From the NCBI RefSeq assembly GCF_019668465.1, contig NZ_AP024828.1:4836001-4900000 (forward strand): DNA of 64,000 nt, read 5' to 3'. Within the stretch, counting starts at the first letter, position 1. Each line of letters opens with the position of its first letter. The notes under the pieces are model-generated. The model was not told the origin of the DNA, did not search any database, and saw only the letters and a program-made list of their open reading frames with translations. This document shows positions 7,162 to 63,945 of the stretch, piece by piece. Source of the DNA: Mycobacterium senriense (GTDB lineage Bacteria; Actinomycetota; Actinomycetes; Mycobacteriales; Mycobacteriaceae). A program made the translations under genes and the position numbers.

Positions 7162-7673
7162 TACCTGCCCCTCTCGTTTGCGTCGCCGCTCAGCAGTTGC
7201 ATTGCGCGGTCAGCCCGATCGGCATCGGCGACGACGTCGAAGTGCCTGGGCTGCAGCGACCGCACGGCGGTGAAGTCGCGCCGACCGGCTTGAAACGCGT
7301 ACATCGCAAGGCCGGTCAACGCGCCGATGACCGCGCCGAAAATGACGCCATAGCAAGCCAGCACCAGACCGGCGATCAACGGGTATAACCAGTTGAACAG
7401 GCCGAAGATCCAGCCGATCAACCCCCCGGTCAGTGCGCCGGCGGCGGCACCGCGCAGCGCGGCCCACCCGTAGTTCGTCCGACCGGTCACCTGTTCGACC
7501 AGCTCCAGATCACGGCCGATTATGGCGACCCGTTGTACCTCGAAGTGTTGATCCGCAAGGTAGTCAACGGCCCGCTCCGCGTCGGCATAATTGTCGAAGG
7601 TGGCGATGACCCGGCGGGCGGGTTGATCTGTTCGGACTGCGTCCGGGTCCACCGCGTGCGTGGTGTCAGCCAT
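7161..7673 (-). CDS. General-stress membrane protein (GSP17M/YflT-like domain)
   Basis: The 170-residue protein starts with a ferredoxin-like segment ([35 protein letters not shown]) typical of general stress protein 17M, followed by a glycine-rich hydrophobic stretch ([17 protein letters not shown], then [23 protein letters not shown]) that forms glycine-zipper-like membrane helices, and a cytosolic tail. It is the second gene of the chaperone operon, between hsp20 and dnaK. A membrane-protecting or envelope-sensing role is plausible, but no biochemical function is known to me for this family. Confidence 0.8.
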
Positions 7674-52158: not shown

Positions 52159-52419
52159 GCTTAACGGCGGTATACGCAGGCGTCCGCGAATGTGTGCTAT
52201 ATCCCTTGTGGCACAGCGAGTTACCACACGTAGACACAGCCGCGGACGAACACGGAAAGCCGCGGTCAAATCGACCTAATGACGGTATGAATGGCGGTAC
52301 GGACCGCGCATTCCCTTCCCGCCCGAGCCAGACGGCCCGCGTTAACGAGTGACGGCCCCGTCGGTACGACACGGGTGTCCTATGGACCGAAACTAAGGCA
52401 TCTTGTCGGATCCGGCCGG

Positions 52420-52432
52420 TATATTTTCCGGT
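52420..52432 (+). promoter_or_regulatory. -10 box of a leaderless start (gene at 52433)
   Basis: TATATT at 52420-52425 is followed by 7 nt and the ATG at 52433. This supports the ATG over an upstream TTG at 52403 as the start and predicts transcription beginning at or next to the start codon. Confidence 0.55.
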
Positions 52433-53053
52433 ATGTTTTCAGCCCCCTATCCCACCGACGACGAAGTTGTTGCCGAACTTGGCGACAAATTCCTCGATTC
52501 TCTGGTCGCCGCCGTGCGTGGTGCCCGTAACGACCTCAACGACATGCGCGGGTGGCGTCCAGGATGGTTTCCCACCATGCATGCGCGCTGCCTCTCCAAC
52601 CTCATCCATGATCGGATGTGGGCGCATCTGGTCACTCTCATCGACAGCGACGCCGACGCCAACATCATCGAGGTGGGCCCTACCCGCGAAATCGCGCTCG
52701 GCATCCACCTTCGGCTGAGGATCAAGCGACATCTTGCCGGCGACCGCATCAGCACGTACCCGACCCGGACGGCCATCGAGTTCTGGCGGCAGAACACCGA
52801 CACGCTGCCTGGCCTCGAAGAGGTACGCATCGCCGTCGGCTACCGCTGGGATCGGGAACTCCGCGAGATCGAAGCACCCGTGGTGTCGCTCCGGGACGGA
52901 AAAGATAACGTCATCTGGGCCATCGAGCTGAGCGAACCCGCCGAGGGCGAGAAGGTGTCGTGGAAGCCGATCGAACCGACGTTGCCGACCATCGACCTGG
53001 GTGACCTCGCGAGCGATGCTGAGGACGATGAGGGAGAAGCGAGTACGTCATGA
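52433..53053 (+). CDS. Unknown protein paired with ImmA/IrrE
   Basis: The 206-residue protein is soluble and mixed alpha/beta with an acidic C-terminus (DLASDAEDDEGEA). Blocks such as NDLNDMRGWRPGWFP, LSNLIHDRMWAHL and TAIEFWRQNTDTLPGLEEVRIAVGYRW are not from a family I recognise. It is translationally coupled to the XRE-ImmA gene (ATGA overlap). Toxins often occupy this place next to ImmA-domain antitoxins; this is an inference from position. It is the first cargo gene after the attachment site. Confidence 0.65.
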   Translation: MFSAPYPTDDEVVAELGDKFLDSLVAAVRGARNDLNDMRGWRPGWFPTMHARCLSNLIHDRMWAHLVTLIDSDADANIIEVGPTREIALGIHLRLRIKRHLAGDRISTYPTRTAIEFWRQNTDTLPGLEEVRIAVGYRWDRELREIEAPVVSLRDGKDNVIWAIELSEPAEGEKVSWKPIEPTLPTIDLGDLASDAEDDEGEASTS

Positions 53054-54093
53054 GCGGGCTGGGAGATGTGCTCGCGATCGCTCGGAAGGCGCGGGGACTC
53101 ACCCAAGCGGAGCTGGCAGACATGGTGGGTACCACGCAACCCACCATCAATCGCTACGAGGCCGGTGACCGCGCCCCAGAGCCAGAGACGGTGGCAGCAT
53201 TGGCGCAGGCGCTGGGAGTTACGGAGCAACTCCTTATACATGGCAACCGCTTTCGCGGAGCCTTGGCCGTGGACGCCCATATGCGTCGGCAGAAAACCAC
53301 GAAGGCGTCTCTGTGGCGCCAGATGGAAGCACGGCTGAACCTGCTTCGGGTTCACGCGTCGTTTCTGTTCGAGGAAATCTCGATGATGAGCGATCAGCAC
53401 GTACCAACGTTCGACCCAGACGATGTGCCCGCGCAGCATGCCGCGCGACTGATTCGCGCACAGTGGAGGATGCCCTTGGGCCCCGTCGTCAACCTCACGC
53501 GATGGCTTGAGAGCGCCGGCGTGCTGGTGTTCGAGGAGGACTTCGGCACTCACCGGATCGACGGTCTTTCCCAATGGGTCGGCGACCATCCCGTGATGTT
53601 GATCAATGCCAATGCTGCGCCAGACCGCAAGCGGCTCACCAAAGCTCATGAGCTTGGCCATTTGGTGCTGCACTCGAATATCGCTACCGAGGATATGGAA
53701 GCTGAAGCCAACCGCTTCGCGGCCGAGCTGTTGATGCCGCTCGACGAGATTCGGCCAGAGCTTCGCAAGGTGGACCTGGGAACTCTTGCCGCGCTCAAGC
53801 GCGAATGGGGTGTGTCGATGCAGGCGCTCCTTGAGCGGGCGCACGGCTTGAAGACGGTCACGCCGGAAGCCCGGACGCGCTTCTACAAGATGATGAACGC
53901 GAAAGGGTGGAAGACGAAGGAACCGGGCAGCGAGTTCATCCCCGACGAAAGACCCGAGTTCCCAACGCGGATTGGCGATGCGCTCACGGCCAAAGGCTTC
54001 TCCGAGGAGCGGATCGCCGAGATCGCCGGCGCGGCGACGCCGGCGGACAATCCGTTCAGGGCTGCACCGACCAGCCGACTTCGCGCGTTGTAA
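53050..54093 (+). CDS. XRE regulator fused to ImmA/IrrE metallopeptidase
   Basis: The 347-residue protein has an XRE helix-turn-helix (about 8-60: LTQAELADMVGTTQPTINRYEAGDR) and an ImmA/IrrE zinc peptidase with HELGH at 200-204 and a following glutamate segment EAEANRFAAELLMP. Such proteins cleave or inactivate repressors or act as antitoxins. It overlaps the upstream gene by 4 bp and probably regulates their shared promoter. Confidence 0.92.
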   Translation: MSGLGDVLAIARKARGLTQAELADMVGTTQPTINRYEAGDRAPEPETVAALAQALGVTEQLLIHGNRFRGALAVDAHMRRQKTTKASLWRQMEARLNLLRVHASFLFEEISMMSDQHVPTFDPDDVPAQHAARLIRAQWRMPLGPVVNLTRWLESAGVLVFEEDFGTHRIDGLSQWVGDHPVMLINANAAPDRKRLTKAHELGHLVLHSNIATEDMEAEANRFAAELLMPLDEIRPELRKVDLGTLAALKREWGVSMQALLERAHGLKTVTPEARTRFYKMMNAKGWKTKEPGSEFIPDERPEFPTRIGDALTAKGFSEERIAEIAGAATPADNPFRAAPTSRLRAL

Positions 54094-54404
54094 AGCGCCG
54101 GAATCGGCCGGATCACGATGGACGCACGTCGCTCATACCTGGCGTTCACTGCTGCTCGCTTCCCGCAGTCCATCGTCGAGATAACCGGGCTGACGGCGCC
54201 GACATTCTGAGGAGCGCAGCGACAGGACGAGACGGGCAAACACCCCCAGAACTCCGGTCGGTTTCGCAACCTACGGGGATCGCGTGGATCGGAGCCCGAT
54301 ATGAGCACCGTGCGGCGCGTGAGCTTGCTTATGCGACGTGCCCTTCGACCGCCTTGTATTGGCCGGGCCTAGACACCTAGCAATTTCGTATTACACTTGT
54401 CGGC
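54094..54404. other. Short gene-free stretch before the toxin-hsdR unit
   Basis: This 311-bp stretch has no supported gene. Its right end carries the -10 box for the next gene. No repeat or RNA gene is recognised. Confidence 0.4.
54392..54404 (+). promoter_or_regulatory. -10 box of a leaderless start (toxin gene)
   Basis: TACACT at 54392-54397 is followed by 7 nt and the GTG at 54405. No ribosome site is visible between them, which fits a leaderless transcript. Confidence 0.55.
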
Positions 54405-54662
54405 GTGCTTCGAATCGAAAAGACTGCGTTGAAGCACGGCTGTTCGCGGGAGGCGATCTCGCACGCCTACGACCTTTACCAGTACGAAGACGTGATTGAT
54501 CCCGATTCCGAACCACCAAAGATCCTCACCATCGGACCCGATGCCGCTGGCAACATCCTCGAGCTGGTCGGCGGTGAGCAGTCCAACGGCGACCACAAGG
54601 TCTGGCATGCGATGAAATGCCGGCCGCAATACCTAGCCCTGCTCCCGGGTGTCGGGAGGTGA
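54405..54662 (+). CDS. BrnT/DUF4258-like putative toxin
   Basis: The 85-residue protein starts MLRIEKTALKHGCSREAISHAYD and continues ILTIGPDAAGNILELVGGE, then KVWHAMKCRPQYLALLP, the pattern of small RelE/BrnT-like toxins common in mycobacteria next to CopG-type antitoxins. The likely catalytic His/Arg/Tyr residues are near the C-terminus. The partner antitoxin is not a separate gene: the ribbon-helix-helix units are the N-terminus of the HsdR protein that begins 2 bp downstream. Confidence 0.7.
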   Translation: MLRIEKTALKHGCSREAISHAYDLYQYEDVIDPDSEPPKILTIGPDAAGNILELVGGEQSNGDHKVWHAMKCRPQYLALLPGVGR

Positions 54663-54663
54663 G

Positions 54664-57621
54664 ATGGAACACGACGAACAGACGCACGAAATGAAAGGCG
54701 GACGCGTACTAACCGACGCGGACCTCGAGGCGTTGGCCAACGAGGCCGAGCGTGGTTACGACCCCGCTCAGTTCGCCCGGAGCCCTGGCCGCCCTGGCCG
54801 CCCGCGAATGGGCTCGGCACCTGCAGCCGTGCTGCCTGTTCGGCTGCATCCGGATCTCGACGCGGCGGTCAAACGCCGAGCGGCGATTGAGCGCACCTCG
54901 GTCAGTGAGCTCGTGCGTGAGGCGGTAAGGCTCTATCTGAAGAGAGAGGTATCGACGCCAGCGTTCGTCAGCTCGGTGGATCTCGAGGCGCTTGCAGATG
55001 AAGCCGAAGCCGGGTACCCAGTCTCCGCGATAAGCCGCAAACCGCGCGCTCGGCCTCGGGCGGAGGTCGTGCCTGTGCGCGTGCCGCCCGAACTCAAGGT
55101 GGCATTGGAGTCGCGGGCCGAGGCCGAGGCGACCTCGGTAAGCGAAATCGTTCGCGCGGCTCTTCGGGCGATACTTGGCGACCCGGACCCTGACCCGCCG
55201 CCTGCGGCGCCGGCGCGGCCTCGCGTTTGGGGACCCACCGAGGCGGACACTTGCCGCGATTACGTCGTGCCGAAGTTGAAAGAGGCCGGTTGGAGCGATG
55301 ACCAGATCATCGAGCAATACCGCGTCACCGACGGCCGGATCATCAAAGTCGGTTCCAAGCACCGGCGTGCCGAAGCGCTGCGCGCGGACTATGTCCTTGA
55401 GTATCGGCCTGGAGTCCCGATCGGCGTAGTTGAGGCCAAACGCGAATACTCGACGCCGGGTCAGGGCATGCAACAGGCGAAGAACTACGCGCAACTGCTC
55501 GACGTACCATTCGCCTATGCGACGAATGGCTTGTCTATCGTCGAAAACGACTCCAATACCGGCATAGAGAGGGCAAACCTCCCCTCGTTCCCGTCGCCGG
55601 ATACTTTGTGGGGGCGCTACCGGGAGTGGAAGGGCATCCGCGACGATACGGTTTCCGATGGTCTTCTGTTCCCATTTAACCGAGCGCTTCACAACTCCGA
55701 CGGGACCATCAAGGAGCCGCGCTACTACCAGCGGGTTGCAATCAACCGCTCCATCGAAGCGATCCTCGGCGGTCGGAAGCGCCTCTTGCTCACAATGGCG
55801 ACTGGTACTGGCAAGACTTTCGTGTCAATGCAGATCGTCTGGAAGCTGTGGAATAGCGGGTGGATTCGTGGCCGGCGCCCGCGGATTCTGTACTTGGCAG
55901 ATCGAAATGTCCTTATCGACCAGCCGATTGAGCGGGAGTTCAAGCCCGCATTCGGCGCGGACGCGGGATCGCCAATCTGGAAGCTGCGCGGCTCCGCAAA
56001 GGCGGGGCGCGAGATCTACTTCGGCCTATACCAGCAGCTTGCCGACGGCGGTGTTGAGCCGAACGGGATGTTCCGGCAGTTCGCGCCTGACTTCTTCGAC
56101 CTGATCATCGTCGATGAGTGCCACCGGGGCAGCGCCCGGGCGGAGTCGTCCTGGCGGGCAATCCTTAACCATTTCCGTCCGGCGACTCAGCTGGGAATGA
56201 CTGCCACTCCGAAGCGGGACGAGACCGCCGACACATATGCCTATTTCGGCGGCGCCCCGCTTTTCCAGTACTCCCTCGCGCAGGGCATCGAGGACGGTTT
56301 CCTTGCTCCATACAGCGTGCGCCGTGTGGTGCTCAGCCCGGACGCACATGGATGGTCTCCTGAACCAGGCCAGCTAGACCTTTTCGGTAAGGAGATCCCA
56401 GCGGGGCTCTACACCACCAAGGACTTCGAGAGGGTTGTCTCGCTGCTAAGTCGCACTGAGGCCGCGGCCAAGCACCTGACGAACTACCTGCGCGGAACGG
56501 ACCGTTTCGCCAAGACGATTGTCTTCTGCGCCAACCAAGTGCATGCCGACCAAATGCGTCGAGCCCTGCACAACGCTAACTCCGACATCACACCGCAACA
56601 CCAGGACTACGTCGTGCGAATCGTCAGCGACGAGAAGAAGGTGGGTCAAGGTCACCTCAGCAGGTTCACCGACACCGATTCTCAATTCCCGGTCATTGCG
56701 ACAACATCAGAGCTTCTGTCGACGGGCGTCGATGCGCCCACTGTGCGCAACGTCGTGCTGTTTCGGCCAATCGGGTCGATGGCGCTGTTCAAGCAGATGA
56801 TTGGCCGTGGCACCCGGTTGTTTCCGGACGACGACAAGCTTTCCTTCGACATCATCGACTACTCGGGGGCGAGCGCACTGTTCAGTGACCCGGAATTCGA
56901 CGGCCCACCTGAACAAGTCGTCCGCGAGGAGATCGACGACGAGGGAAGTGTCGTGGAGGACGTCGTTATCGAGAAGCCTAAGCTGCTGGTCGAGTCGCCA
57001 CCGGTAGACCAAGAAGCCGACGTCGATCCCGATGATCTACCAGAGCCACGTGCGAGGTTCTACGTCGACGACGTCGAGGTGTATGTGACGGCGGAAGCCG
57101 CATACGAACTTGACCCGCAGACGAATCGGCTCCGGCTCGTCGAGTACCGCGACCTCGTGACTCAGACGGTTCGATCCCTATTTCCCAGCGCGAACGAGCT
57201 GCGGGCCAAATGGGCGAACCGGGTTAGCCGCCGCGAAGTTGTCAATGCGCTCGCCGCGCGCGGGGTTGACGCGGAGGAGTTGGCGGAGCGTGCAGGCCTC
57301 GCCGCCGCGGATCCCATTGATGTCCTTGTCCACCTTGCCTGGAACCAGCCATTGGCCACCCGAGTTGACCGCGCGCGCCGAGTCCGCAAGGAGCATGCGG
57401 ACTTTTTCGCGGCGTTCCAGCCCGCCGCCCGCGAGGTGCTCGACTTCCTGCTCGAAAAGTACGCCGAGTACGGCATTTCCGAGCTGGAGGATCCCGCAGT
57501 GCTCCAGGTGCAGCCGTTCTCGAACCTTGGCACGCCCGTGGAGATAGCCCGCCGCTTTGGGTCGGTCGCTGAGCTTCGGGATGCACAGGCCAAGCTTGGA
57601 GAACTAGTTTATGTGGCTTGA
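54664..57621 (+). CDS. hsdR: Type I restriction HsdR with N-terminal tandem antitoxin-like domains
   Basis: The 985-residue protein has two antitoxin-like units: residues 16-92 (LTDADLEALANEAERGYD; VRLHPDLDAAVKRRAAIERTSVSELVREA) and about 104-171 (VDLEALADEAEAGY; VRVPPELKVALESRAEAEATSVSEIVRAA), each ending in a ribbon-helix-helix. A Pro-rich linker leads to a standard HsdR: PD-ExK nuclease (D242, E257, K259), Walker A ATGTGKT (379-385), DECH (484-487), TATP (513-516), QMIGRGTRL and an EcoEI-type C-terminus. A GGGAGG site precedes the ATG at 54664. It restricts unmodified DNA by translocation. No stop or frame break lies between the parts. Confidence 0.93.
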   Translation: MEHDEQTHEMKGGRVLTDADLEALANEAERGYDPAQFARSPGRPGRPRMGSAPAAVLPVRLHPDLDAAVKRRAAIERTSVSELVREAVRLYLKREVSTPAFVSSVDLEALADEAEAGYPVSAISRKPRARPRAEVVPVRVPPELKVALESRAEAEATSVSEIVRAALRAILGDPDPDPPPAAPARPRVWGPTEADTCRDYVVPKLKEAGWSDDQIIEQYRVTDGRIIKVGSKHRRAEALRADYVLEYRPGVPIGVVEAKREYSTPGQGMQQAKNYAQLLDVPFAYATNGLSIVENDSNTGIERANLPSFPSPDTLWGRYREWKGIRDDTVSDGLLFPFNRALHNSDGTIKEPRYYQRVAINRSIEAILGGRKRLLLTMATGTGKTFVSMQIVWKLWNSGWIRGRRPRILYLADRNVLIDQPIEREFKPAFGADAGSPIWKLRGSAKAGREIYFGLYQQLADGGVEPNGMFRQFAPDFFDLIIVDECHRGSARAESSWRAILNHFRPATQLGMTATPKRDETADTYAYFGGAPLFQYSLAQGIEDGFLAPYSVRRVVLSPDAHGWSPEPGQLDLFGKEIPAGLYTTKDFERVVSLLSRTEAAAKHLTNYLRGTDRFAKTIVFCANQVHADQMRRALHNANSDITPQHQDYVVRIVSDEKKVGQGHLSRFTDTDSQFPVIATTSELLSTGVDAPTVRNVVLFRPIGSMALFKQMIGRGTRLFPDDDKLSFDIIDYSGASALFSDPEFDGPPEQVVREEIDDEGSVVEDVVIEKPKLLVESPPVDQEADVDPDDLPEPRARFYVDDVEVYVTAEAAYELDPQTNRLRLVEYRDLVTQTVRSLFPSANELRAKWANRVSRREVVNALAARGVDAEELAERAGLAAADPIDVLVHLAWNQPLATRVDRARRVRKEHADFFAAFQPAAREVLDFLLEKYAEYGISELEDPAVLQVQPFSNLGTPVEIARRFGSVAELRDAQAKLGELVYVA

Positions 57622-57635
57622 TCTCTAGATAAACT

Positions 57636-57695
57636 TTAGTTTGAGATCATGCTGAGCACTGAAACTCAAGCTACGATATAGTTTCAGTTCATGCT
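57636..57695 (+). promoter_or_regulatory. Direct repeats before abiEi, likely AbiEi operator
   Basis: TTAGTTTGAGATCATGCT (57636-57653) and ATAGTTTCAGTTCATGCT (57678-57695) agree at 15 of 18 positions, 42 bp apart, and inverted AAACT/AGTTT pairs lie around them. AbiEi antitoxins repress their own promoter by binding repeats near the start, so this is the probable operator. Confidence 0.55.
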
Positions 57696-57706
57696 AGGAT
57701 TGCCTG
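57695..57706 (+). promoter_or_regulatory. -10 box of a leaderless start (abiEi)
   Basis: TAGGAT at 57695-57700 is followed by 6 nt and the GTG at 57707. It directly follows the second operator repeat, so bound AbiEi would block the promoter. Confidence 0.5.
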
Positions 57707-58300
57707 GTGCCTGTCGACCGCCGCGATCTTCGCCGACATCTGTTCAAGATCGCCAGCGAACAGGCCGGCTACTTTACGGCCGCTCAGGCGAAGGAGGTTG
57801 GCTACTCATACCAGGCACAGGCTCACCATGTTGCTGCGGGCAACTGGATTCGGATTGACCGAGGGCTGTTCCGGCTGCTCGAGTGGCTCCCTGATGTCCA
57901 TGACGATCTCGTGCGTTGGTCGCTGTGGTCGCGCGGCAAAGGAGTCGTGTCACATGAGACGGCGCTTGCCGTACATGACATCGGCGAGTTTGAGTCAGGC
58001 CGGGTGCACCTCACCGTGCCGCTGGAATTCACGATGCGGGACGAAGTCGTTGTCTTGCACCACGAGGAGCTGTCGGACGTCGACATAGAGGTGCGAACTG
58101 GGTTTCGTGTCACGACGCCGACCCGCTCGCTGATCGACATCGCCGCCACAGCTCCGGACGAAGATCAATTGGCCCGGGCGGTCGGGGAGGCTAGGCAGCG
58201 TGGACTCGTCAGCGTTCGCGCGCTGAGATCGCGTGCTGAGGTGGTTAATGCGCGCGCTGCGCTTTACCTCGAGCGCGCACTACAGCAGACAAACGCATAG
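57707..58300 (+). CDS. abiEi: AbiEi antitoxin
   Basis: The 197-residue protein has an N-terminal winged helix (YFTAAQAKEVGYSYQAQAHHVAAGNWIRIDRGLFRL) and the C-terminal AbiEi antitoxin part (SHETALAVHDIGEF, TPTRSLIDIAA). It neutralises the AbiEii nucleotidyltransferase as a type IV system and represses its own operon. The GTG at 57707 is supported by the -10 box. It shares one base with the abiEii start. Confidence 0.9.
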   Translation: MPVDRRDLRRHLFKIASEQAGYFTAAQAKEVGYSYQAQAHHVAAGNWIRIDRGLFRLLEWLPDVHDDLVRWSLWSRGKGVVSHETALAVHDIGEFESGRVHLTVPLEFTMRDEVVVLHHEELSDVDIEVRTGFRVTTPTRSLIDIAATAPDEDQLARAVGEARQRGLVSVRALRSRAEVVNARAALYLERALQQTNA

Positions 58301-59163
58301 TGACGTACGAGACCCCGCGCGCACTGCGAACTGCACTTGAGTACCGACTCCAAGCCATCTCAGTTGAAGCGGGTATTGGCCTCGACCGGCTCCGGCGCCG
58401 TGTTCTATTCGAGCGCATTGTGACGAGGCTGCATCGAGCTGAACCGGGGCTCTGGGTCCTCAAAGGCGGTATGGCACTCGAGGTTCGGCTCGGTGGCTCA
58501 GCGCGCGCGACGAAAGACATCGACGTCGGGTTCCGGGAAGGCGTTTCGGATGCCGCGGATCTCCGCGACAGACTCATCGCGGATCTGTCAGTCGATATTG
58601 TTGGCGATCGTTTTGTACTGGAGGTCGGTGAGCCGGCACAGCTCCGCGAGGATGGTGGTGGCCATCTCACCTGGCGGGTGCCGGTAACCGCATTGCTGGC
58701 CGACCGGCATTTCGGGGCGATCAAGCTAGACGTGTCGCCGCGAGCGCACGAGCTGAACAATACCGACCGGCTGCCCCTTCCCAATTCGCTTGCATTCGCG
58801 GGGATTCCGACGACAGAGGTCGAGATAATTGATGTCGAACGTCATGCCGCCGAGAAGTTTCACGCGATGACGCGCGACTACGGGGATCGCGACAACTCGC
58901 GAGTGCGTGATCTACTCGACCTGGTCATCTTGATCGAGTACGGACTAATCGCCCCGGGGGGCGTTGCAGTCGCTGCACGTGCGGTGTGGGCCGAGCGCGA
59001 CGCCGCTGATCCCCCTAGTCAGCTACCTCCATTCCCATCGTCGTGGCCGCATCGATATGAGGAGCTCGCAGCCGATTACGACGTTGACGCCCGCACGTTT
59101 CCTCGCGGAGCAGGCCTGGTTCAAGCCCTATGGATACAGATGTTTCCCGAGAGTAAGGAGTAG
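58300..59163 (+). CDS. abiEii: AbiEii nucleotidyltransferase toxin
   Basis: The 287-residue protein belongs to the AbiEii/AbiGii nucleotidyltransferase toxins: VLKGGMALEVR (53-63), then the paired metal aspartates in TKDIDVGF (71-78) and a later lysine in AAEKFHAM. Relatives (MenT-type) add nucleotides to tRNA acceptor ends and stop growth, and can abort phage infection. Its GTG start overlaps the last base of the abiEi stop. It is placed between hsdR and hsdM, which is unusual. Confidence 0.92.
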   Translation: MTYETPRALRTALEYRLQAISVEAGIGLDRLRRRVLFERIVTRLHRAEPGLWVLKGGMALEVRLGGSARATKDIDVGFREGVSDAADLRDRLIADLSVDIVGDRFVLEVGEPAQLREDGGGHLTWRVPVTALLADRHFGAIKLDVSPRAHELNNTDRLPLPNSLAFAGIPTTEVEIIDVERHAAEKFHAMTRDYGDRDNSRVRDLLDLVILIEYGLIAPGGVAVAARAVWAERDAADPPSQLPPFPSSWPHRYEELAADYDVDARTFPRGAGLVQALWIQMFPESKE

Positions 59164-59166
59164 CCG

Positions 59167-60651
59167 GTGGCAGCAGGGAAGAAGACGCCGCCAACGGCAA
59201 CGTCGCCGCAAGCAAAGCTTGCTGCGGTCATCAAGTCTGCGCGCGACCACATGCGGAAGGACGCCGGGCTGAACGGCGACCTTGACCGAATCCCACAACT
59301 CGCTTGGCTGCTGTTCCTGAAAGCGTTCGACGGCCTCGAGGAGAGCCGAGAGGTCACCGACGAGAATTTCCGTCCCGCGATCGAGGCGCCCTATCGTTGG
59401 CGTGACTGGGCCGCCGACCCGAATGGTCGCACAGGCGAAGCGCTGCTCACCTTCGTGAATGGGGAACTACTCCCATATCTTCGCGGACTCTCCGGCACCG
59501 GAACGCATGACCCACGCGACACGCTTGCCGCCGTGTTCAAGGAGACCTACAACCGCATGCTTTCCGGATACTTGCTGCGGGACGTCGTGAACAAGGTCAA
59601 TGAGATCAACTTCGCATCGTCCGACGACATTCACACGATGGCGCATTTGTACGAGTCGATGCTGCGGGAAATGCGTGACGCTGCAGGCGATTCGGGAGAG
59701 TTCTACACTCCGAGGCCGATCATCCGGTTTATCGTGCAGCAAGTCGACCCTAAGCTAGGTGAGGTCGTACTGGACCCGGCCGAGGGCACAGGCGGCTTCC
59801 TCGTGGAGTCGCTCGAGCACCAAATGCCGATGGTGACAACGACGAGCCAGCTACGCACTCTGCATAGCAACCTGCGAGGCATCGAGAAGAAACCCCTGCC
59901 ATTCCTGCTAGGAATGATGAATCTGGTATTGCACGGCGTCGGCCAGCCGAACATCGTCCGCGGCAACGCGCTCGCCGAATCCATCACTCAAATCGGTAAG
60001 GCACGCCGGGTCGATGTCGTGCTGACGAATCCGCCGTTCGGCGGCGAGGAGGAGAGAAGTATCCAGGCCAACTTCCCCGCTGACAAACAGACGGCCGAAA
60101 CCGCCTGGCTATTTCTTCAGCTGGTGATCCGCATGCTTAAGGACGGCGGACGCTGCGGCATCGTCGTACCAAACGGCCTACTCTTCGGTGGCGGCGTCGG
60201 GGCTCGAATCAGGAAGCAGCTTCTCGAAGAGTGCAATCTACACACGATCGTGCGGCTGCCGGACGGCGTGTTCTCGCCGTACACCGATATCCCCACGAAC
60301 CTCTTGTTTTTCGACAAGGCCGGCAGGACGAAAGAGGTCTGGTACTACGAGATTCAGCCTCCGGAGGGCCGCAAGAAGTATTCGAAGACCAAGCCGATGC
60401 GCTTCGAGGAGTTTGCCGATTGCCAAGCATGGTGGACGAATCGCGCGGAAAACGAACGGGCCTGGCGAGTGCCTGTCGCTGATCTGGAGTCAAGCGACGA
60501 CTACAACCTAGACCTGCGCAATCCCAACCGCGCCGACGATCTCGCGCACCGCCCGCCGACCGAATTGCTCGCTGAGATTGTCGAAACGGAACGGTCGATA
60601 CTTGCCCTTCTGGAGGAGCTGCAGCATGAAGTTTCAGGGTTTCACCCGTGA
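59167..60651 (+). CDS. hsdM: Type I DNA methyltransferase HsdM
   Basis: The 494-residue N6-adenine methyltransferase has the N-terminal helical part (LAWLLFLKAFDGLEE), FYTPRPIIRF, motif I DPAEGTGG (203-210) and motif IV NPPF (288-291). With HsdS it methylates the recognition site and protects self DNA. The GTG start lies 3 bp after abiEii; the stop overlaps hsdS by 4 bp. Confidence 0.96.
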   Translation: MAAGKKTPPTATSPQAKLAAVIKSARDHMRKDAGLNGDLDRIPQLAWLLFLKAFDGLEESREVTDENFRPAIEAPYRWRDWAADPNGRTGEALLTFVNGELLPYLRGLSGTGTHDPRDTLAAVFKETYNRMLSGYLLRDVVNKVNEINFASSDDIHTMAHLYESMLREMRDAAGDSGEFYTPRPIIRFIVQQVDPKLGEVVLDPAEGTGGFLVESLEHQMPMVTTTSQLRTLHSNLRGIEKKPLPFLLGMMNLVLHGVGQPNIVRGNALAESITQIGKARRVDVVLTNPPFGGEEERSIQANFPADKQTAETAWLFLQLVIRMLKDGGRCGIVVPNGLLFGGGVGARIRKQLLEECNLHTIVRLPDGVFSPYTDIPTNLLFFDKAGRTKEVWYYEIQPPEGRKKYSKTKPMRFEEFADCQAWWTNRAENERAWRVPVADLESSDDYNLDLRNPNRADDLAHRPPTELLAEIVETERSILALLEELQHEVSGFHP

Positions 60652-61814
60652 CCGCCGCACTCCGCCGCGTCGGCGACGTCCTGCAGCATGAACGAATTCC
60701 GGTCGACCCCGATCCGCAGATCGAGTACGTGAAGATCGGCATACGATCCTTCGGCAAAGGGATCTTCCACTATGAGCCCACACCGGGCGATCAGCTGGGA
60801 AGCCTCCGATTCTTCGCATTGCGTCCAAATCGTCTCGTTATCAGCAACATAAAGGGATGGGAAGGAGCGATTGCGGTCTCGACCGAGGCCGATGCGCACT
60901 GCGTTGCTTCAAATCGATTTCTCTCCTACACCCCGATCGACGCGCAGATCGACGTCAGCTGGGCGCGCTGGTATTTCCTCAGTGAGCCAGGGATTGAGCA
61001 GATACGACGAGCGTCCCCCGGCTCGGCTGACCGGAACCGAACGCTGGCGATTGACCGCTTCGAGTCCCTCGAAATCCCGCTCCCGGCAATCGATGTGCAA
61101 CGACGAATTGCTGCGCACCTCGATGCCGTCCAGCGACGGGGGGCACATATCGTCGATCTAGCCGCGCGGGCGACCGCACTGACAGAAGCGGCCGTGGTTT
61201 CGCTGATGTCTCGCCCAGATCTGTCAGCGTCGCAGAAGGCACACGCGGGTTGGCGCAAAATGCAGCTGGGTGAGCTCCTTACCCTCGATGTTCACGAGGT
61301 GGCCGTGAAGCCGACTGCTTCATACAACATTGCGGGCGTCTACTCCTTTGGCCGCGGAGTGTTCTCGCGTGGGTGCATCGAGGGAAACCAAACCAGCTAC
61401 AAGACCTTGAACCAAATAAGCGCGGGGCAGATCGTCATGAGCCGGCTCAAGGCATGGGAGGGAGCGATCGCCGCCGTTCCCGCGGCCATGAACGGATTCT
61501 ATGTTTCACCCGAATTTCCAACTTTTACAGTTCATGACAATGCCGTCGAACGAGATTTCGTGGGGTTGGTTGTTTCCACCGAGCCGTTTTGGGCGCAGCT
61601 CAAGGGCGCGTCAAAAGGTATCGGCGCCCGGCGCGAACGAGTAAACGCAGCGAAGCTGCTAGAGCGTGAGATAGAGGTGCCGCCGCTAGACGAACAGCGG
61701 GCGGTACTGCGATCGATCGCCTCCCTCGACGCGATCAAAACCGCTCGTGAAAACCGTTCGCCACGTCTGTCAGCCCTCTTGCCGGCTCTGCTTAATACGG
61801 CGTTCGGCCCGTGA
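60648..61814 (+). CDS. hsdS: Type I specificity subunit HsdS
   Basis: The 388-residue protein has two target-recognition domains, each followed by a helix of the conserved region (IDVQRRIAAHLDAV; LDEQRAVLRSIASLDAI). Both domains share the same layout: SFGKGIF, then LVISNIKGWEGAI in the first and SFGRGVF, then IVMSRLKAWEGAI in the second. They may therefore read related half-sites. The GTG start overlaps hsdM (GTGA). It decides the sequence recognised by the whole enzyme. Confidence 0.94.
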   Translation: MTAALRRVGDVLQHERIPVDPDPQIEYVKIGIRSFGKGIFHYEPTPGDQLGSLRFFALRPNRLVISNIKGWEGAIAVSTEADAHCVASNRFLSYTPIDAQIDVSWARWYFLSEPGIEQIRRASPGSADRNRTLAIDRFESLEIPLPAIDVQRRIAAHLDAVQRRGAHIVDLAARATALTEAAVVSLMSRPDLSASQKAHAGWRKMQLGELLTLDVHEVAVKPTASYNIAGVYSFGRGVFSRGCIEGNQTSYKTLNQISAGQIVMSRLKAWEGAIAAVPAAMNGFYVSPEFPTFTVHDNAVERDFVGLVVSTEPFWAQLKGASKGIGARRERVNAAKLLEREIEVPPLDEQRAVLRSIASLDAIKTARENRSPRLSALLPALLNTAFGP

Positions 61815-61987
61815 CCAGACCACGCACCGGATAAGCCCAGCTCGCCGCCGCGCCGCGGCCGGGCCCCAAAGTCCAGCGCGCGGTGTGGGTACGCCCGAGC
61901 GAGGCTCCAAATCGCCCGGTATCTCTCGATATTTTTTTCTGAGGGCAAGGGGGGGCCGCGCCAATGCCATGGGGGGCGACGCGGGGG

Positions 61988-62311
61988 CTACCCCCGGGTC
62001 ACCCCGGGTAGGTCTGGTCGGGAGCCGGCGCCGCAGGCTTCGGCAGCACGTAGCAAGTAGGTAGCGAGCCAGCGGGCTTGCTCTGAGCTGAGTTCAAAGT
62101 CCCCACCCGTGACGAGGTCGTTGAACTCCGGATAGTAGTTAGCGTGCGCGATAGCTATCTCGGTGCAGCCTCTGGAAGACGAGCGCAGGATGACCGCCAC
62201 TTCGGTGTCGTCTCGGAGCCAGATACTCTCCCCGCCGACTCGCGGATCGTTGGAGTCGTGAAACATCAAGCTTTCACGGCCAACTTGCATTTCGGTCGGG
62301 GTGCTGTTCAT
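61988..62311 (-). CDS. Unknown element-borne protein, 107 residues
   Basis: The protein contains SIWLRDDTEVAVILRSSSRGCTEIAIAHANYYPEF and LSSEQARWLATYLLRAAEAC, the latter a helix seen in small phage-related proteins. The ATG at 62311 has an AAGGA and a nearer AAGG site; the frame is open to 62365. It converges on hsdS and is the last gene of the minus-strand set. Function unknown. Confidence 0.6.
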   Translation of the reverse strand: MNSTPTEMQVGRESLMFHDSNDPRVGGESIWLRDDTEVAVILRSSSRGCTEIAIAHANYYPEFNDLVTGGDFELSSEQARWLATYLLRAAEACGAGSRPDLPGVTRG

Positions 62312-62414
62312 CCTTGTGTTCCTTTCACGTGCTGCTAGTTCTATCGGAACTACTTGCTTGGTCATGTTGTGGTGGTTTCGTCGTCTTCGGAGTGGTCTTC
62401 GGGCCCTGGCGGGG

Positions 62415-62975
62415 TTACATGCGCCCGAGCGACGGGCCGATGGTGGCGTACGACAGACCGGCTCCGAACGAGTCGTACTGCTGGAGCTGGGCTAGGTCTA
62501 TGAGGTCTTCGGCTGCGGCCGGGTGTTGCTTGACGTATTCGGTGACGATGCCGTTCCATCCGTTGGCGAGCGCTCGCGCCAGTATCGCGGCGGCGAGAGT
62601 CGCGTCGTCGGAACGCATGGCTGACGCGAATAGCTCTGCTGCGTCGTCGCTTTGGGCGAGCCGCGCTGCTCGGTCTTGAGCGTCGCGGTACGCGATGAGT
62701 TGACTGGGATCGGTGCTGGCCACACTCGACAGTCCGAATAACCGCTTCTCAAGCGACTGCCTCTTGGCGGTGATGAGTTCGTTTTCCTTCTTGCGGAGGT
62801 CGATGAGCTTGGCGCTCACCTGTGCGTGTTCGGTGTCGAGCTTGGCGCGCTTCCCGATGTCGGTTAGCGTGCGGTCGGCGTCGAGCCGGTCGGTGGTGCT
62901 GGCCCACCGGCTCTGAATGCGCTCGGCCTGCTTGCGTAGGTCGTCGATCTGGGATTCGAGCTGTGTGAGAGACAT
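62415..62975 (-). CDS. Unknown coiled-coil protein
   Basis: The 186-residue protein begins with a coiled coil (LESQIDDLRKQAERIQSRW; VSAKLIDLRKKENELITAKRQ) and continues with a helical domain (EKRLFGLSSV, TLAAAILARALANGWNGIVTEYVKQH). The second part resembles the end of the next gene upstream (63001-63405). It belongs to a phage-like minus-strand series. The ribosome site AGGAAA precedes the ATG. Function unknown. Confidence 0.65.
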   Translation of the reverse strand: MSLTQLESQIDDLRKQAERIQSRWASTTDRLDADRTLTDIGKRAKLDTEHAQVSAKLIDLRKKENELITAKRQSLEKRLFGLSSVASTDPSQLIAYRDAQDRAARLAQSDDAAELFASAMRSDDATLAAAILARALANGWNGIVTEYVKQHPAAAEDLIDLAQLQQYDSFGAGLSYATIGPSLGRM

Positions 62976-63000
62976 TGCGTGTGTTTTCCTTTCGTGTGGG

Positions 63001-63405
63001 TCAGGCTGAGGCTCGGCCTGTGGTGGTCAGGTGCCAGAGTTCTTTGGCGGTGTCTGCGATGGGGTGTTCGCCGTCCCAGAGGTTGATGAATGCGTTGACG
63101 ACGGTGGCCCATCGGTTGTCGATGGCGACGCGTAGGATCGCGACTTGCAGACGGTTGTTGGCTTGGTCAACGGCGCGACCGAAGTCTTGGAGCGCCGCGT
63201 TTTCGGTGCGCAGCGCCGCGACTTGCGTACCGACAGAGACTTTTCCGAACAGTCGGCGGTACAGGAATTCGATGCGTTCCGCGGTTGCTCGGGCGGCTTG
63301 CTTTTTCTCGGCGTGTTCCACCGCGGCGCGGTCGACGTTCCTGGCGACCCGTTCCACGATGGTCAGCCCACCGAACCGGCTGTCCGCCCCGCTAATCGTT
63401 ACCAC
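63001..63405 (-). CDS. Unknown element-borne protein related to the coiled-coil gene
   Basis: The 134-residue protein has a helical start and then RRLFGKVSV, ALRTENAALQDFGR, and LQVAILRVAIDNRWATVVNAFINLWDGEHP, collinear with the last 110 residues of the 62415-62975 product. The GTG at 63405 overlaps the stop of the preceding gene. Function unknown. Confidence 0.6.
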   Translation of the reverse strand: MVTISGADSRFGGLTIVERVARNVDRAAVEHAEKKQAARATAERIEFLYRRLFGKVSVGTQVAALRTENAALQDFGRAVDQANNRLQVAILRVAIDNRWATVVNAFINLWDGEHPIADTAKELWHLTTTGRASA

Positions 63406-63559
63406 CTCCGAACAAGTTGCGCGCGAACGCAGCTCGGCCGTCGTCGGCTGCCTTGCCGCCGGGTGGCCGGACCAGCTGCATGAGTTCTTCGAGTTCTTCG
63501 TCGGGCAGGTCGCGGAGGTACTGCTCGACTCCGAGCCGTAGCCAATCGGTCGGGTTCAT
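63392..63559 (-). CDS. Small acidic protein, 55 residues
   Basis: The peptide MNPTDWLRLGVEQYLRDLPDEELEEL with an Asp/Glu-rich helix is followed by a Gly-rich end. Its ATG at 63559 shares one base with the stop of the upstream gene and its stop overlaps the next one, so it fits the tightly packed series. No family is recognised. Confidence 0.55.
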   Translation of the reverse strand: MNPTDWLRLGVEQYLRDLPDEELEELMQLVRPPGGKAADDGRAAFARNLFGGGND

Positions 63560-63945
63560 TAGCGCTGGTCTACCTTTCGTTCGGCGTACTGGACGACTGT
63601 CTGTCGCGGGAAGACCCATCGACCGCCGACGTTGCGACCGCCGATCCTGTCTCGGAAACGATCATCACGGACCCACCTTTCCGAGCAGTGCAGGATTTCG
63701 GCGGCGTCTGTGCTGTCGATGAGATCTTCTGCTGCCGATCGTGACGATTGTGGCTGCGGCGCACAAGTTTTGGTTCCGCGGACGGAACTAACGAGGCGGG
63801 CATGCACAGTGTCGAACCCGCGCGGAAGACGCGGCAGAGGTCTGCCACCGAAGACACAGCGAGCCATCAGGTCGCGCGTGCCAAAGAGCAGCAATGTCAC
63901 TTCGGTCGCTGTGAGACCGACCACGATCGGTTCCGTGTCGCTCAT
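63559..63945 (-). CDS. Excisionase-like helix-turn-helix protein
   Basis: The 128-residue protein has a C-terminal winged-helix of the excisionase/MerR kind (IDSTDAAEILHCSERWVRD; GGRNVGGRWVFPRQTVVQY) after an N-terminal helical part (VGLTATEVTLLLFGTRDLMARCVFGG). It could control integration, excision or early transcription of the element. Its ATG overlaps the stop of a further upstream gene by 4 bp. Confidence 0.65.
   Translation of the reverse strand: MSDTEPIVVGLTATEVTLLLFGTRDLMARCVFGGRPLPRLPRGFDTVHARLVSSVRGTKTCAPQPQSSRSAAEDLIDSTDAAEILHCSERWVRDDRFRDRIGGRNVGGRWVFPRQTVVQYAERKVDQR

Follow-up and report, generated by a model that had tools for sequence, protein, structure and literature searches.

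A mycobacterial type I restriction subunit HsdR with an N-terminal tandem antitoxin-like unit, encoded next to a RelS/BrnT-like toxin candidate

Toxins kept within type I restriction-modification (R-M) loci have been described before. In PrrC-EcoprrI, an RNase toxin encoded in the R-M locus is silenced by the restriction complex and set free once the phage peptide Stp has blocked it (PMC3874165, PMC2610378). DarTG2 is a toxin-antitoxin pair that lies within a type I R-M (RptR) island and is under the control of a repressor (PMC12255303). Two free-standing pairs are also relevant: RelS-RelI (Rv2663-Rv2664), of which RelS is a ribosomal RNA (rRNA)-cleaving toxin of solved structure (PDB 9SDC), and BrnT-BrnA, in which the antitoxin BrnA has a C-terminal ribbon-helix-helix (RHH) and controls its own operon (PMC11980606). 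Here we analysed 64,000 nucleotides of Mycobacterium senriense (contig NZ_AP024828.1, positions 4,836,001 to 4,900,000, forward strand; hereafter the window), in which a type I R-M operon starts with a small toxin candidate followed by an hsdR gene whose product carries a tandem RHH antitoxin unit at its N-terminus (Table 1). We consider it probable, although well short of certain, that a type II toxin-antitoxin operon lies here and that its antitoxin and repressor has become the N-terminus of HsdR, with toxicity, neutralisation, autorepression and addiction being the inferred parts of this reading.

The hsdR gene reads from ATG to stop in one frame without an internal stop; an alternative GTG start at 54649 would give a protein of 990 amino acids (aa). 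An earlier note on this DNA, made from the letters alone, had claimed an uninterrupted frame of 985 codons, two N-terminal copies of one small unit and a complete HsdR behind them, all of which is borne out. Pfam detects two RHH_1 stretches (37.7 bits, cut-off 20.5), followed by ResIII, HSDR_N and EcoEI_R_C. The two units share 48% identity over 77 columns (E=1e-17), and each has an N-terminal helix (motif LxxLAxEAExGY) followed by an RHH, with a GRP-rich hinge in unit 1. The remainder is a full-length match to the NCBIfam family of EcoAI/FtnUII HsdR (NF046051, 921 bits, cut-off 550) with both its nuclease and helicase parts (ResIII, EcoEI_R_C), and hsdM and hsdS are found at the same locus. 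In a comparison with plasmid HsdRs, every match among the best 20 of 312 records begins at query residue 192; by alignment, residues 1-191 are extra relative to an ordinary EcoAI-type HsdR.

Table 1 Features of the R-M operon in the window and proteins with the same N-terminus on other bodies.
Feature	Position	Strand	Details
Promoter-like site	54370..54397	+	TAGACA-16-TACACT; -10 overlaps operator
Operator-like site	54384..54397	+	TTTCGTATTACACT; only genome copy at <=1 mismatch
RelS/BrnT-like toxin candidate	54405..54662	+	85 aa, GTG start
hsdR with N-terminal tandem RHH antitoxin	54664..57621	+	985 aa
Antitoxin unit 1	54709..54948	+	residues 16-95; helix 18-30 (EAERGY), strand 55-61, helices 63-75 and 80-92 (RHH)
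Antitoxin unit 2	54949..55188	+	residues 96-175; helix 105-116 (EAEAGY), strand 134-140, helices 142-154 and 159-171 (RHH)
EcoAI-type HsdR body	55237..57612	+	residues 192-983
AbiEi antitoxin	57707..58300	+	
AbiEii toxin	58300..59163	+	nucleotidyltransferase
hsdM	59167..60651	+	
hsdS	60648..61814	+	
P0026			tandem RHH + KAP NTPase; PADLOC PifA 3.5e-48
P0062, P0098, P0099			tandem RHH + TIR
P0095			tandem RHH + Avs2 N-terminus; 3e-53
P0080			tandem RHH + PDC-M54A; 1.7e-139
P0097			tandem RHH + NACHT-like; E 4e-5, under Pfam cut-off
P0074, P0096			tandem RHH + non-HsdR body of no known family

The predicted structure of the 85-aa protein encoded ahead of hsdR resembles BrnT/RelE toxins and has the fold of the RelE/ParE (BECR) superfamily. 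It is homologous to the solved toxin RelS (9sdc_C, E=2.7e-16), and its K10, H11, H68 and R73 fall on positions that were tested in RelS, the first three matching K9, H10 and H64, as expected of a member of the RelS family. H68 is retained in 17/17 close toxin relatives, several of which have no equivalent of K10 or H11. No Pfam family, BrnT (PF04365) included, matched this protein even at E up to 1, and PADLOC and NCBIfam likewise assigned it to none. The description of the gene as a BrnT-like toxin stands for the modelled fold, to which homology to RelS is added, and not for membership of the Pfam family; likewise its place directly before hsdR is correct, with one base between its stop and the hsdR ATG where 2 bp had been claimed. 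Together, homology and the structural model support the protein as a RelS-related toxin candidate of the BrnT/RelE fold, and we infer that it is toxic.

Relatives of the fused units occur as stand-alone genes. The RHH part, searched against family, order, phylum and genome contigs, yielded 64 fetched loci with an RHH unit at 45 bits or more, leaving out 24 fetched loci that had none (20 HsdR loci and L042, L043, L066 and L067). A toxin gene adjoins the unit on the same strand in 46 of the 64 (20/27, 14/21, 2/3 and 10/13), the toxin being first in 26 and the RHH gene in 20, and one of the 46 is a fusion on an independent contig (L046). A further search gave three more RHH loci, one with a toxin. 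Excluding the fusion, a related toxin lies beside a single unit in 46/66 loci fetched via the RHH, which supports the relation of the HsdR units to a stand-alone antitoxin that the earlier note had proposed. These counts refer to the loci fetched (30/49 places in one search), with the stand-alone unit judged by eye from its open reading frame to be a separate small gene; places found twice (L013/L074, L050/L090, L054/L095 and L092/L105) were merged in the operator count and unit tree described below and not in the count of 64. Conversely, of 11 toxin places in other genomes, 8 have an adjoining RHH unit (at two of these, L008 and L015, stops break the toxin) and 3 have a RelI-like gene that is not an RHH. 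By eye, a RelS-like toxin stands next to such a RelI-like gene at ~1500-2000 of L009, L011 and L014, relatives within the same genus or order, so that this toxin family appears to be paired with two unrelated antitoxin types. Toxin relatives were also found on 29 plasmid records, 18 of which have an RHH gene annotated there.

In contrast, 0/27 loci of RHH-less EcoAI-type HsdR have the toxin, the RHH or the operator within the up to 1.5 kb inspected per side (less at contig ends). Since the toxin is beside 46/66 RHH loci and 0/27 of these, it follows the antitoxin and not the restriction enzyme, and the idea that it merely travels with EcoAI-type HsdR is ruled out. Neither the toxin nor two short antitoxin queries matched any phage record, and HsdR residues 1-190 matched no plasmid record, although RHH genes adjoin the toxin there; a low-complexity filter or composition statistics may be the cause of these nulls. 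When 115 units (65 stand-alone, plus 25 of unit 1 and 25 of unit 2 from 25 of 83 N-termini) were put into a quick tree, a branch set each group apart from the rest (support 85, 84 and 97, the last value starred; few columns). This fits a single duplication that preceded the spread of the fusions.

Many stand-alone pairs have TTTCGTANTACGAT or TTTCGTATTACACT immediately 5' of the first gene, centred on the palindrome TCGTA-N-TACGA. The 11-mer occurs at <=2 mismatches within 60 bases in 36/48 distinct pairs, the window and L046 included, against 2.9% of dinucleotide-preserving shuffles; upstream bases were counted from the first matched residue, and L047, L057, L097 and L100, where they are probably inside the gene, were kept in the denominator. 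The 14-mer TTTCGTATTACACT is common to the R-M operon, L046 and stand-alone L020, L021, L025, L031, L032 and L114, and the window site has 2 mismatches to the full palindrome. This comparison supports the retention, by the R-M operon, of the operator sequence of stand-alone pairs. The GTG of the toxin candidate is 7 bases downstream of the predicted -10, and the transcript is probably leaderless. Adjacency of toxin and antitoxin genes is seen directly; the operator is proposed from its sequence, and the fused HsdR is predicted to bind it.

At least 75 proteins (query included) match the HsdR N-terminus among the 7992 best candidates scored, P0091 only in part; 71 have HsdR-type domains in precomputed Pfam annotation and 4 are others. 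A second search added 9 proteins. In genome panels of the family (401), order (200), phylum (396) and class (394), with the best candidates per genome scored and 30/49 places fetched in one of the searches, the fusion is present only in the window's own genome. Among named relatives, the nearest are a Mycobacterium metagenome-assembled genome and M. colombiense. L046, a contig of an independent Mycobacterium metagenome-assembled genome, has the same toxin and the same fusion; the earlier note would have given up its idea had the two not co-occurred in another genome. Because 75 proteins have this N-terminus and L046 repeats the whole arrangement, a frameshift or assembly accident is unlikely, and selection on the locus helps to rule it out. 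In one pairwise comparison of window and L046, the ratio of nonsynonymous to synonymous substitution rates (dN/dS) is 0.20 for the toxin, 0.19 for residues 1-190 and 0.10 for the HsdR body; all three are under purifying selection. L077, a one-unit fusion by its match range, was rejected: it has no RHH motifs, and ahead of the HsdR start its frame consists of unrelated sequence, with stops farther upstream.

What the earlier note missed is that the same N-terminus is also found on non-HsdR defence proteins (Table 1). In a quick tree made from 83 N-termini, in which truncated P0091 was omitted and fragments and the broken P0092 and P0093 were included as HsdR, the 9 non-HsdR proteins are scattered among 74 labelled HsdR, with 8 changes of label, at least 4 of them forced by well supported branches. 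A remnant of the HsdR start persists just after the RHH in P0026, P0062 and P0080 (0, 0 and 1 of 1000 shuffles as good), which suggests that HsdR was the earlier partner in these three and was later replaced. The remnant is weak in P0098 and P0099 (8 and 16 of 1000), and none was found after the RHH in P0095, P0097, P0074 and P0096 (402 to 912 of 1000). For individual non-HsdR proteins a chimeric assembly may be the explanation, but the TIR form is known from three clusters, two of which resemble each other. At ~8000 of the uncultivated viral contigs L106-L112 (five of which are also L115-L119), there are proteins with the N-terminal helix motif of the antitoxin (e.g. GRVLTDADIQALADEAERGYDV), sometimes near the C-terminus and by eye without a complete RHH unit; they are possibly decoy antitoxins or carriers of a portable binding motif. 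A broader idea, which we put forward tentatively and regard as rather doubtful, is that HsdR, TIR, KAP/PifA-like, Avs2-like, NACHT-like and PDC-M54A proteins all wear the tandem RHH as a portable 'antidote collar', with HsdR as first wearer and the bodies then repeatedly swapped. Phage attack on, or loss of, any wearer would free the same kind of rRNA-cleaving toxin, and some phage proteins, with the toxin-binding helix alone, might act as decoy antidotes.

How could the fusion in HsdR work? In the reading that we favour, an antitoxin and autorepressor was duplicated and then became the N-terminus of HsdR. The toxin would be a RelS/BrnT-like RNase, with 16S rRNA as its probable target; the N-terminal helix (EAExGY) of each unit would cap one toxin, and the two RHH halves would pair as a single-chain DNA-binding dimer. 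The HsdR-toxin complex would then repress its own promoter at the operator-like site and couple expression of toxin and restriction subunit to the amount of HsdR. Loss of the HsdR N-terminus would free the toxin, creating addiction to an otherwise easily lost subunit. Depletion of HsdR by host translation shut-off, proteolysis or perhaps anti-restriction would make DNA restriction give way to ribosome damage, and the fused antitoxin would perhaps act as a fail-safe; release triggered by phage anti-restriction is speculative. Neutralisation by the fused units, autorepression and addiction are all predicted. The proposal that the restriction subunit is itself the antitoxin is hence partly supported, by the fold and family of the toxin candidate, the antitoxin-related units and the retained operator sequence; autoregulation by HsdR has just as much support as the guard idea. 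Two scans weigh against the operator: promoter prediction in the region gave 2 sites against 1.5 in shuffles, not above chance, and the 11-mer with 2 mismatches was found 16 times in the window where 14.8 are expected, which is no enrichment.

The alternative that survives best, to which we give close to an even chance and which is compatible with the favoured reading, is plain addiction, whereby the fusion prevents loss of a selfish R-M island and senses no phage counter-defence. The plasmid-borne toxin relatives speak for it, as do P0092 and P0093, which retain the antitoxin part in front of an HsdR body that by eye is truncated or frame-shifted, as if the antitoxin must stay; the state of these two could come from decay in which the antitoxin was spared, or from errors in sequencing. 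Against plain addiction speaks the appearance of the N-terminus on several unrelated defence effectors, which it would not require, although the two are compatible. We think it unlikely that the fused RHH pair serves only as a DNA-binding domain for self-repression of the operon by HsdR, the small protein persisting as a co-repressor that has lost meaningful toxicity. The operator 5' of the fused operon and the toxin relatives lacking K10 or H11 fit this; yet H68 is universal among the close relatives, K10 and H11 are present in the window toxin, which is under purifying selection, and few positions of the fused proteins are as well conserved as the EAExGY motif before the RHH. That the RHH units are a leftover without present function is very improbable, since the rarity of the fusion in the genome panels is outweighed by the selection on residues 1-190, by the operator sequence common with stand-alone pairs and by the invariance of E27-A28-E29-G31-Y32 and G45-R46-P47 in 63 fused HsdRs. 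Should the toxin-antitoxin reading be right, one polypeptide would be restriction endonuclease, antitoxin and transcriptional repressor, which would explain the stabilisation of a type I R-M system whose R subunit is not simply losable. The guard idea of bacterial immunity could then also be tested simply, nature itself having exchanged the effector under guard. HsdR of EcoKI is degraded by ClpXP (PMC12255303), and on this reading HsdR degradation during restriction alleviation would be dangerous here.

Between hsdR and hsdM lies a second toxin-antitoxin pair, AbiEi/AbiEii, so that each half of the R-M system may answer to a different toxin-antitoxin regulator. L046 has no AbiEi/AbiEii at 7435-7520; because homology restarts inside the last AbiEii codons (window 59137), the pair was probably once present there and then lost. 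Compared with the R-M cassette, the flanks (window 61933-63820, L046 2245-4019) run in inverted orientation in L046, which would fit an inversion or a move of the cassette. Upstream of the toxin, at 52403-54093, a 216-aa protein without a Pfam or PADLOC family is followed by an XRE-ImmA/IrrE protein (PADLOC RmrA). Window 3829-49947, beside the defence cassette, looks like a stress or heat-shock island (DnaJ- and DnaK-like, small heat-shock, PfpI-like and Dps-like proteins, named by eye from translations). A tRNA search of the window found none.

How does this locus compare with the systems described? No report of an HsdR-antitoxin fusion was found in the literature searched, which mostly excluded subscription papers. 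With RelS-RelI it has in common a toxin related in sequence and fold with matching key residues; its partner is not of the RelI type, for RelI is without known superfamily, whereas the antitoxin here is an RHH, tandem and part of HsdR. The toxin fold and an RHH antitoxin are likenesses to BrnT-BrnA as described in PMC11980606, but there is no Pfam BrnT match here, and the BrnA profile (PF14384) is absent from the matches of the window protein and stays below its cut-off of 26.1 bits in two relatives (17.1 and 12.2 bits in P0092 and P0096); the BrnA fusions described are to BrnT itself, and the main text of that paper does not mention HsdR. DarTG2/RptR likewise has a toxin-antitoxin pair within an R-M operon, as separate genes, and the part of PMC12255303 consulted mentions neither an RHH nor a fused protein. 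The PrrC anticodon nuclease itself had no match among the genes scanned at 52403-61814. Its system, as presented in the accounts cited above, is similar in that a type I R-M enzyme keeps an RNase toxin, here a predicted candidate, and differs in the kind of toxin and the way it is held: there the complex binds PrrC, an anticodon nuclease of ABC-ATPase type, whereas here a BrnT/RelS-type toxin would face an antitoxin carried covalently on HsdR. An R-M enzyme as toxin keeper is already known from PrrC-EcoprrI, and by this comparison the covalent antitoxin is the new element.
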